This document shows positions 21,994 to 25,110 of a DNA stretch of 64,000 nt, one piece after another. The notes under the pieces were generated by a model. That model had not been told where the DNA came from and did not search any database. It worked only from the letters and a program-made list of their open reading frames with translations. How positions within the stretch are numbered: the stretch's first letter is position 1; each line of letters begins with the position of its first letter. Position numbers and translations under genes: made by a program. This DNA comes from Halobacteriales archaeon YIM A00013 (lineage in GTDB: Archaea > Halobacteriota > Halobacteria > Halobacteriales > Haloarculaceae), in NCBI GenBank assembly GCA_025041195.1, contig JAKCFM010000001.1, forward strand, positions 558,001-622,000, in the 5' to 3' direction.

Positions 21994-22501
21994 ATGACAG
22001 TACCACCCCTGTTGTCGCCGACGGAGGATAGAGGAAGCCACGAGCGCGTGGCTGATCGAGAAATTCTGCGATAATCCACCAACCGTCGAACGGACGGAGG
22101 CGGGCGTCACCGTTGCGCTTGACGATCGCACCGCACAGCTCACACCCAGCGTGGCACGCACGTTGTACACCGCACTCGAACGGACGCTCTACCAGGAGGG
22201 CTCGTTCGTTCACACCGCGTTCGAACACCGACCCGACGGCTCGTATGTCGTCGAACGAAAGCGGGCCACCTCCAGTGGCCACCGGAAAGTGTTCGACTCG
22301 TTCGAGGCGCTCCAGCAGCTGTACGATGCGCAGGCGACGACGTTCACGGCAAGCGATCTCGACCGACCTGGTCTCACCAGCGGACGAACGCATCTGCTCG
22401 TTCGACATTTCGCAGAGCATCCGGCGTTTGACTGTACACTCTGCAGTCAACAGCCACTCACCGTGGAGAAACGAACGGAGGTGTGCACAGCAAACGACTG
22501 A
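21994..22501 (+). CDS. conserved haloarchaeal protein with an apparent +1 frameshift near its start
   Basis: The coding frame clearly runs from about 22001 to TGA at 22499-22501, with coherent sequence such as WLIEKFCDNPPTVER, ALERTLYQEGSF, HRPDGSYVVERKR and LLVRHFAEHPAFDC. Before 22151 (a GTG) this frame has no ATG, GTG or TTG. An ATG at 21994 opens the adjacent frame and both frames are open together from 21998 to about 22069, so a single-base frame change there would give a normal N-terminus. The cause could be sequence error, a true mutation, or a non-standard start. Function is unknown. Confidence 0.6.
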
Positions 22502-22719
22502 TCGGGTGCTATGGGCGCGTCCGGAACCCCACAGACTGGGCGTTCATGCTGGGCCCCGGAATCGAACAGCTTCGACCGGGACAAACAGGAGACGCAGTTG
22601 GTAGCGTAGCGGTGTGGGTATCATCTGTTCGACACCAGACGCTCCCAGCAGCACCGATTGGATCCAAAACACACCAGTGAGACCACAAGTTTTTGGCGAA
22701 TGCGGATCCTACACCGGGC

Positions 22720-22866
22720 ATGCGATCCGAAGCGGAGATTCGTGAGCAATACGAGTATCTCAAAGACGAACTCGACGACGAGGATATGCGACACGAAGGT
22801 GTTCGGCAAATGTTTACCTACTACCGTCGAGCACTGGGATGGGTACTCGAAGAAGAGCACATGTAG
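22720..22866 (+). CDS. 48-residue conserved-looking micro-protein
   Basis: The ATG at 22720 opens 48 codons ending TAG at 22866. The protein is highly charged and helical: EIREQYEYLKDELDD, then DMRHEG and MFTYYRRALGWVLEEEH. The balance of Glu, Asp, Tyr and Trp and the choice of G/C at third positions are those of a real haloarchaeal gene, and I believe similar small proteins occur in other haloarchaea. The 218 bases before it (22502-22719) contain nothing I can support. Confidence 0.65.
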   Translation: MRSEAEIREQYEYLKDELDDEDMRHEGVRQMFTYYRRALGWVLEEEHM

Positions 22867-22914: not shown

Positions 22915-22920
22915 TTTATA
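22915..22920 (+). promoter_or_regulatory. TATA-like box before a candidate RNA
   Basis: TTTATA lies about 25-28 bases before the first strong hairpin of the region 22934-23040, the right spacing for a transcript starting near 22941-22946. Confidence 0.4.
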
Positions 22921-22933
22921 CCAATAAAGCCAC

Positions 22934-23040
22934 TTGGTTAGATTGACGCTTCGCTTGGAGGGCCGAAGCGTCAGCGGGGACCAATTCAGGGCGGCATGCC
23001 TTGCCGGGCGTTTTCATCCCGGCCGGGCTGCTTTCCTTTC
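22934..23040 (+). ncRNA. candidate structured small RNA, two hairpins
   Basis: Non-coding, G/C-rich and strongly foldable. Hairpin 1: TTGGT (22934-22938) with ACCAA (22980-22984), an internal loop, then GACGCTTCG (22945-22953) with CGAAGCGTC (22964-22972). Hairpin 2: GCGGC (22991-22995) with GCTGC (23027-23031), an internal loop, then GCCGGG (23003-23008) with CCCGGC (23018-23023). A T-rich stretch follows (23032-23041). Two stems with internal loops recall H/ACA guide RNAs, but I find no ACA box, so the class is open. The flanking genes converge on it. Confidence 0.5.
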
Positions 23041-23061
23041 TACTTCGAACAATCCAGCGAG

Positions 23062-23277
23062 CTACTGCTCAGTGTTCGTTTCGAGCTGCGTGGCGACTCG
23101 TTCTGAGGCGTCTGCGAGCCGATTGACCGCATTCAGCAGTTGGGTGAGCAGATACAACACGTACAAAAACAAGAGCGATAGCAAGCCTAACAGAACCTGT
23201 CCCATGATCACTGTCACACCTACAATGAGTACTGTGAGGAGTCCAAACAACGGTGGCTTCACAGAATTTCGAGCCAT
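23062..23277 (-). CDS. small two-helix membrane protein
   Basis: 71 residues: a hydrophobic hairpin (two adjacent membrane helices, about residues 10-48) followed by an amphipathic tail, AVNRLADASERVATQLE, that looks like a short coiled coil. No family assignment. It is convergent with the micro-protein and candidate RNA upstream. Composition and length are typical of small haloarchaeal membrane proteins. Confidence 0.6.
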   Translation of the reverse strand: MARNSVKPPLFGLLTVLIVGVTVIMGQVLLGLLSLLFLYVLYLLTQLLNAVNRLADASERVATQLETNTEQ

Positions 23278-23363
23278 AGCAGTGACTCGATAGGCGATCA
23301 GTTATTCTTACTGTTTTTCTGGATCATTCGAACTGCTGCGAATCGTTTGGGCCACGGCAACCG

Positions 23364-23369
23364 TTTATC
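23364..23369 (+). promoter_or_regulatory. TATA-like box of the BNR-repeat gene
   Basis: TTTATC lies 25-30 bases before the ATG at 23394, consistent with a leaderless transcript. Confidence 0.45.
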
Positions 23370-23393
23370 TTCCCACGCCACAACAGTGAACGT

Positions 23394-24341
23394 ATGCTCC
23401 TGATCGGCAGCGACGACGGGGTGTACACCCAGCTCGATGGGCACACCGAACAGACGCTAGATGCCGGTCGCGTCCACCGCCTTCGAACGTTTGATGGGGT
23501 AGCGGGCGCGTTCGCGGCCACCCAAAGTGGACTGTATCACACGGGAGATGGAACGGAGTGGCGAGAGCTCTGTGTCCCCCACGAACGAACGTTCGCTGTA
23601 GCAGTGGATCCGGACGCAAATGAACTGCTTGTGGGAACGAGTCCCGCACACATCTTTCGAACATCACTCTCGACGATCGACCCACCGTCACCGCCCACGT
23701 GGACTGAACTCGAAGGATTCCAACAGCTCCCCTCTCGCGATGACTGGTGTCTCCCGCGTCACGAGAATCGTTCCCACGTCAGGGAAATCCTCGCCGATCC
23801 CGCCGGAGAAAACTGGCTCGTTGCTGGCGTCGAAGTCGGCGGCATCCACTGTAGCACGGATGGTGGACGCTCGTGGGTCGAGCGATCGAACGGTGTGGAT
23901 CCCGACATCCACGAACTGACGGTTGCCGGGCCGGCCGAATACGTTGCTGCAACCGGTCACGGGCTCTACCGAACGCGTGATGCCGGACAAACGTGGAAGC
24001 GCCTCGATCAGAACGTCCGCCAGTCGTATTTCAGAAGCGTCTGTTCGATCGGCGACAACGTCTATGCCGCCGGCGCACTCTCGAACTCCTCGAACTGGGA
24101 CGATCCAGACGCCGACCCTGGACTGTTCGTTGCCACCAACGCCGGCTCACTCGATCCGCTCAGCATTCCCGCGGAAGACGAAATGGTGACGGGAATGACT
24201 GCCATTGGCGGTGAGCTGTACGTCGCAACCCACCACGGCCGAGTGTTCGCACACCAGGGCTCCTGGAACGACGTTGGCGAGTTTCCCGTTCGCGGCCCAC
24301 TGACCGGCCGTTACACGCCCGTTACCGCGCTTGAGGGCTGA
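23394..24341 (+). CDS. BNR/sialidase-type beta-propeller protein
   Basis: 315 residues with repeated propeller units. The Asp-box motifs STDGGRSW (near residue 162) and TRDAGQTW (near 203) are of the BNR/sialidase kind, and weaker blades start GSDDGVY and ATQSGLYHT. There is no signal peptide or membrane helix, so it is probably cytosolic. Related proteins (YCF48/photosystem assembly or sialidase-like folds) bind partners rather than act as enzymes. No substrate can be proposed. It is convergent with the amphi-Trp gene, 5 bases apart. Confidence 0.75.
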   Translation: MLLIGSDDGVYTQLDGHTEQTLDAGRVHRLRTFDGVAGAFAATQSGLYHTGDGTEWRELCVPHERTFAVAVDPDANELLVGTSPAHIFRTSLSTIDPPSPPTWTELEGFQQLPSRDDWCLPRHENRSHVREILADPAGENWLVAGVEVGGIHCSTDGGRSWVERSNGVDPDIHELTVAGPAEYVAATGHGLYRTRDAGQTWKRLDQNVRQSYFRSVCSIGDNVYAAGALSNSSNWDDPDADPGLFVATNAGSLDPLSIPAEDEMVTGMTAIGGELYVATHHGRVFAHQGSWNDVGEFPVRGPLTGRYTPVTALEG

Positions 24342-24346
24342 ACCGA

Positions 24347-24613
24347 TCACTCGACCTGAAACGCGCCACCGGTCTCTCCATCCGACCACTCGATCTCAAA
24401 CTCGACGCTCATCTCGACCTCGTCACCCTCCGTCTCGCGCTCGACTTTTACCTCAAATTCTGCTGTCTCGGGCACTGTCAGCGTGATCTCTTCCGATCCG
24501 TCAGTAAGCGTGAACGACTCATCAGCCGCTAACTTGTCAACGACAGATTGTAGGTGATCTGCGATTGCTGTGCGGGACTGTTGGCGCTCAACCTCGAACA
24601 ACGTTTCTTCCAT
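24347..24613 (-). CDS. amphi-Trp domain protein
   Basis: 88 residues with an N-terminal helix rich in Ala, Leu and Glu (TAIADHLQSVVDKLA) and a C-terminal beta half ending EFEIEWSDGE, the conserved Trp region of amphi-Trp proteins. These small acidic proteins are common in haloarchaea and have no demonstrated role. About 210 bases follow to the PadR gene; they contain only AT-rich promoter-like sequence. Confidence 0.7.
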   Translation of the reverse strand: MEETLFEVERQQSRTAIADHLQSVVDKLAADESFTLTDGSEEITLTVPETAEFEVKVERETEGDEVEMSVEFEIEWSDGETGGAFQVE

Positions 24614-24822: not shown

Positions 24823-25110
24823 ATGCACGATTTGACCGGTTTTCAACGGGATCTGCTGTATGTCATCGCGGGGAGCGATGAACCACACGGGCTCGCGATC
24901 AAAGAGGAGCTCGAAGAGTATTACGAAAAAGAGATTCACCACGGGCGCTTGTACCCGAATCTCGACACGTTGGTCGAGAAGGGGCTGGTAGAAAAGGGCC
25001 AGCGCGATCGTCGGACGAACTTCTATACGGTTACACGGCGGGGGAACCGTGAGATCGACGCGCGCAACGAGTGGGAAGCGCAGTATATCGACCTCGAAGT
25101 CACGGCATAG
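24823..25110 (+). CDS. PadR-family transcriptional regulator
   Basis: 95 residues forming a PadR winged helix: FQRDLLYVIAGSDEPHGLAI at the start, then IHHGRLYPNLDTLVEKGLVEK, the recognition helix and wing, and a TVTRRGNREI tail. It lacks the C-terminal dimerisation helix of larger PadR proteins, as usual in haloarchaea. It stands alone and is convergent with the RimK fusion gene, so the target is unknown. Confidence 0.88.
   Translation: MHDLTGFQRDLLYVIAGSDEPHGLAIKEELEEYYEKEIHHGRLYPNLDTLVEKGLVEKGQRDRRTNFYTVTRRGNREIDARNEWEAQYIDLEVTA

Follow-up and report, generated by a model that had tools for sequence, protein, structure and literature searches.

The segment at positions 22934-23040 of the window, a stretch of 64,000 nt from the genome of Halobacteriales archaeon YIM A00013, raises the question of whether a gap between convergent genes encodes a structured RNA, to which class such an RNA would belong and what it would do. 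A sequence-only reading had described a candidate new RNA, perhaps of an unnamed class, with a TATA-like box, two hairpins each composed of a lower stem, an internal loop and an upper stem, and a T-rich end, and had compared its design with that of H/ACA guides.

Architecture of the element

The gap in which the candidate had been placed was confirmed, the element being flanked by a plus-strand gene (a 57-aa ORF ending at 22866) and a minus-strand ORF (23062-23277). Judged from its sequence, the segment 22940-23040 of the plus strand is a stand-alone RNA gene of approximately 97-100 nt, the transcription of which is predicted in the source organism. Its parts follow one another in the order TATA box, 5' hairpin, single-stranded linker, variable hairpin 2 and T-rich end, and are given here with two neighbouring genes; counts refer to the 178 sites at which the element was compared.

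22693-22866, plus strand: 57-aa ORF, small protein gene (conserved part 48 aa), upstream of the RNA and beside 104 of the 178 sites
22915-22920, plus strand: TATA box TTTATA, its first T placed 29 nt upstream of the T in TGACGC
22940-22945, plus strand: predicted transcription start region, deduced from the TATA spacing
22944-22973, plus strand: near-invariant hairpin 1 with stem (T)GACGCTTCG / CGAAGCGTC(A) and loop CTTGGAGGGC
22974-22982, plus strand: single-stranded linker GCGGGGACC, identical in 176 of the 178 sites
22983-22987, plus strand: AATTC, kept in PadR-linked copies and variable in paralogs
22988-23037, plus strand: terminator-like hairpin 2, of variable sequence and backed by compensatory changes
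23029-23042, plus strand: T-rich 3' end, with 59-66% T directly past hairpin 2 against a background of 10-17%
24823-25110, plus strand: PadR-family winged-helix regulator (PF03551, E=1.6e-16), the ancestral downstream neighbour

The TATA-like box, the 9-bp GACGCTTCG/CGAAGCGTC stem, the 6-bp GCCGGG/CCCGGC stem and the T-rich end were all recovered as previously described. The segment folds at -52.2 kcal/mol, a minimum free energy matched by 2 of 200 dinucleotide-shuffled sequences (z = -3.3). The TATA box is positioned at -29 or -28 relative to hairpin 1 in 161 of the 178 sites, with its TTTA 94-98% conserved, and a weak TTCAGG consensus directly precedes the hairpin. The two marks of a stand-alone archaeal intergenic sRNA, a TATA box at a fixed distance and a T-rich end, are thus both present at the level of sequence. 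Single-nucleotide differences in RNA length, together with the free divergence of hairpin 2, mean that no reading frame is kept, as expected of a non-coding RNA.

Conservation and distribution

The core of the element, [T/C]GACGCTTCG-(CTTGG/CTTTGG/TCTGG)AGGG-CCGAAGCGTCA-GCGGGGACC, was nearly invariant over the 178 sites, which come from many genera, and the first 39 nt of the RNA were almost unchanged in nearly all haloarchaea examined. Conservation in relatives, on which the sequence-only reading had made its candidate depend, was far above chance: when 59 genomes from the window's order were searched with a BLAST-type program, 54 gave a match, and R1, a covariance model built on the 53-nt core and scanned against 393 genomes drawn from the phylum, matched 80 of them with E ~1e-15 or better, all 80 belonging to that order. 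Among the genomes listed, 80 of 81 haloarchaeal ones carry the element, G044 being the sole exception, and the R1 scan found it in none of the 312 other genomes of the phylum. Two further small families of the order were without it, some of those assemblies being incomplete.

None of the families in Rfam 15 matched the element at the gathering score or even at E=10; the sole nearby match at E<=10 was an 8-bit chance match lying off the element, and the same search on six relatives gave no match at the element. No paper came up when the full-text literature was searched for the sequence. A viral or plasmid origin was considered and rejected, there being no viral or phage match and two partial plasmid matches. 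The latter are partial core copies on large Haloarcula and Halorubrum plasmids (NZ_CP142029.1, NC_012030.1), where no feature is annotated.

A 39-nt core that is almost invariant across an order and kept in diverged paralogs points to a strongly constrained function. The published sRNAs of H. volcanii are mostly unconserved, 22 of 27 having no homologue (PMC3956466).

Contrasting behaviour of the two hairpins

Compensatory changes in the two stems had been named as what would support the candidate. They were found in hairpin 2, where double changes kept pairing in 84 cases and broke it in 16, the corresponding counts for slid controls being 23 and 45, whereas hairpin 1 never covaried. One-sided changes in hairpin 2 gave G.U in 91 cases and A.C in 41, an excess which indicates that the RNA is read from the plus strand; all these counts come from pairwise comparison of same-length relatives and represent sequence pairs, not independent events. 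Although free to diverge in sequence, hairpin 2 folds much better than its shuffled versions: among 151 distinct sequences, 98% had a z under -2 when compared with mononucleotide shuffles. No single internal loop was kept across its homologues. The description as an unnamed class of structured RNA was supported, in that an element without an Rfam family is near-universal in haloarchaea and has a covarying hairpin.

Hairpin 1 occurs over the 178 sites in essentially three loop variants, its variation being almost confined to the first bases of the loop and to loop length (1-2 nt). Its stem is near-invariant, so that the lack of covariation there is evidence neither for nor against pairing. The proposed two-hairpin layout stood as regards both upper stems, but in hairpin 1 the lower stem is not kept by homologues. 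In this genome it is formed by TTGGTT (22934-22939) with GACCAA; over 143 distinct rows, the homologous positions were paired at 2.99 of 6, compared with 3.02 in dealt-out controls. As transcription likely starts downstream of these bases, hairpin 1 would have no guide-type internal loop. A pseudoknot between loop and linker (UUGG/CCAA), noticed by eye, was rejected, as it is not kept in paralogs with ACCTA.

Copies and neighbouring genes

Genomes carry one to four copies, and most carry one; one large family has mostly two and in some cases four, and Haloferax has exactly two in 15 of 15 genomes. Paralogs share the 39-nt module, the promoter and the terminator hairpin, and little beyond these. 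One degenerate second copy (L068; G033:C1:611431-611482) has a shortened loop and an altered linker (GAGGGAC) and is apparently devoid of hairpin 2.

The ancestral site adjoins a gene for a PadR-type winged-helix protein related to RosR. This protein aligns to hsRosR of the PDB (E=2e-24) as a relative, RosR orthology not being implied. The PadR gene was found near 103 of the 178 sites, nearly always downstream and on the same strand; elsewhere it begins 245-830 nt downstream of the RNA, whereas in the window about 1.9 kb and three ORFs lie between them. These ORFs (23062-24613) are a 71-aa membrane-type ORF (minus strand), an HVO_0234-like beta-propeller ORF (plus strand) and an 88-aa ORF (minus strand). 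A PadR gene is missing from the vicinity of many paralogs, for example the Haloferax one next to a transducer gene. Among five RNA-less genomes, the homologue of the PadR protein was distant in three (47-52% identity) and absent from two, both incomplete; most of the RNA-bearing genomes checked, a small sample, had a homologue of at least 77% identity.

The 57-aa small protein encoded upstream is conserved in many haloarchaea and had no match in Pfam. It was rejected as an obligate partner of the RNA, since one genome has the protein but not the RNA and several have the RNA but not the protein; its gene is a neighbour inherited independently. Further upstream, a leuA-Halobacteria RNA (RF03001; 51.6 bits, above the gathering score) was found at 22017-22069 on the plus strand, directly 5' of a DUF7528 gene and not of leuA. 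From 22031 onwards the frame of the DUF7528 gene is open, and its first ATG, GTG or TTG occurs only at 22151.

Proposed function and alternative explanations

We cautiously favour the view that the element represents a family of stand-alone, trans-acting haloarchaeal sRNAs in which a conserved partner binds the 39-nt module in a sequence-specific manner, hairpin 2 serving as terminator and stabiliser. Transcription would start from the RNA's own TATA promoter and end at the T-rich tract behind the stable hairpin 2, which, needed for termination and stability, would be free to vary. The functional part would be the 39-nt 5' module, i.e. a hairpin with a UGGAGGG loop followed by the single-stranded GCGGGGACC, and its partner may be a regulatory RNA-binding protein, the ribosome or another RNP, for which the RNA is proposed to act as scaffold or decoy. 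What is invariant in the hairpin 1 stem is the sequence itself and not just the pairing, an indication of sequence-specific recognition; this is favoured because both stem arms are invariant, the loop is flexible in length and the paralogs have only the 39-nt module in common. Alternatively, the invariance could result from pairing, either to a conserved mRNA or to an RNA outside those sampled. By analogy, and only tentatively, the element might be a haloarchaeal housekeeping RNA, hyperconserved in the manner of a ribosomal or polymerase cofactor, which would bind and control some universal machine, be it the ribosome, RNA polymerase or a globally acting RNA-binding regulator.

That the RNA regulates by base pairing, the loop UGGAGGG and/or the linker GCGGGGACC being seeds for target mRNAs or a stable RNA, is possible but rather doubtful. 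Both invariant segments are predicted to be largely unpaired in the conserved structure, and pairing is the usual mode of the archaeal intergenic sRNAs studied so far (M. mazei sRNA162, PMC3510493); seeds, however, need no invariant stem. The longest Watson-Crick complementarity was 9 nt to the genome's rRNA operon and 7 nt to 24 sampled tRNAs, both within the range of shuffled cores, and the start of the PadR mRNA paired no better than shuffled targets, so that pairing with any of these was rejected as being at chance level. The same rRNA and tRNA results speak against an H/ACA pseudouridylation guide, the comparison drawn by the sequence-only reading and by now a highly improbable one, even though tandem hairpins within about 100 nt would suit such a guide and one is expected in haloarchaea. 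The entire 5' hairpin is invariant and not the guide bases alone; by eye, neither a conserved ANA at the expected spacing nor a GA-rich k-turn in hairpin 1 was seen; and the H/ACA-like design was not upheld, with the lower stem unconserved, hairpin 1 varying in its loop only and the internal loop of hairpin 2 not kept. It is the missing conserved pocket for which the guide was rejected.

The frequent downstream position of the PadR gene on the same strand would also suit a cis-acting leader or attenuator of that regulator gene, but the distance to its start places it past the RNA's own terminator-like end, other ORFs intervene in the window, and many paralogs are without a PadR gene in their vicinity, which leaves this explanation unlikely. 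Neither is it at all probable that selection acts on the DNA, as it would on an inverted-repeat operator over the transcription start for a dimeric protein such as the PadR-type regulator. Hairpin 1 does form a perfect inverted repeat where transcription is predicted to start, often with a PadR gene in the vicinity, and the three RNA-less genomes with any match to this PadR protein have only the distant ones. A spacer varying by 1-2 bp would nevertheless rotate the half-sites, which a DNA-binding dimer could hardly tolerate and an RNA loop could; moreover, linker and loop are invariant as well, and hairpin 2 covaries with a G.U bias on one strand. Since the R1 model is in place and the candidate copies of H. 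volcanii can be deleted jointly, the question of what the element does is directly testable.

Relation to known RNAs

The second Haloferax copy (L146) is preceded by genes for an E1-alpha, an Lrp-like, a TrkA-like, a 78-aa Lrp-like and a coxG-like protein and followed by a transducer gene, the names having been assigned by eye. In H. volcanii, the transducer gene is presumably HVO_2214. HVO_2209 is oadhA4 (PMC8305020), HVO_2212 encodes 78 aa (PMC12850539), and the sRNA hts10 (HVO_2213s) is an intergenic, forward-strand RNA of 161 nt conserved in 18 haloarchaeal genomes (PMC3956466). The Haloferax copy between the coxG-like and transducer genes agrees with the hts10 locus in gene order and strand, and because its order matches that from HVO_2209 to HVO_2213s, it is very probably hts10, an identity that is based on gene order and not on sequence. 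The element has no Rfam family but is not entirely new, as one of its Haloferax copies has very probably already been sequenced and deleted. hts10 was found by sequencing, and its deletion caused mild phenotypes, with a longer lag on acetate (PMC3956466); this fits redundancy between two copies, but also a minor role.

Like the element, hts10 is intergenic, lies on the forward strand and has the gene order HVO_2209 (oadhA4) ... HVO_2212 ... HVO_2213s seen in L146; it was published at 161 nt, without a described structure, family, paralogs or mechanism, whereas the element measures about 97-100 nt. The rancRNA_s194 of H. volcanii (PMC6104027) is also an intergenic haloarchaeal sRNA, of 97 nt, and is ribosome-associated, but its reads terminate in runs of C, which are absent from the core of the element. 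Identity of the two was rejected, as s194 is reportedly conserved in no other haloarchaeon (PMC3956466 Table 5) and the element is near-universal. The leuA-Halobacteria RNA, with a member about 0.9 kb upstream in the window, is another small structured RNA specific to haloarchaea, yet unrelated in sequence and structure and giving no match. Archaeal H/ACA guide sRNAs share with the element the small size and tandem hairpins; the element differs in its invariant 5' stem and in having no conserved pseudouridylation pocket and no visible ACA box or k-turn. As for the housekeeping role suggested above, its analogues would be the bacterial 6S and CsrB RNAs, which are unrelated in sequence and comparable in what they do.
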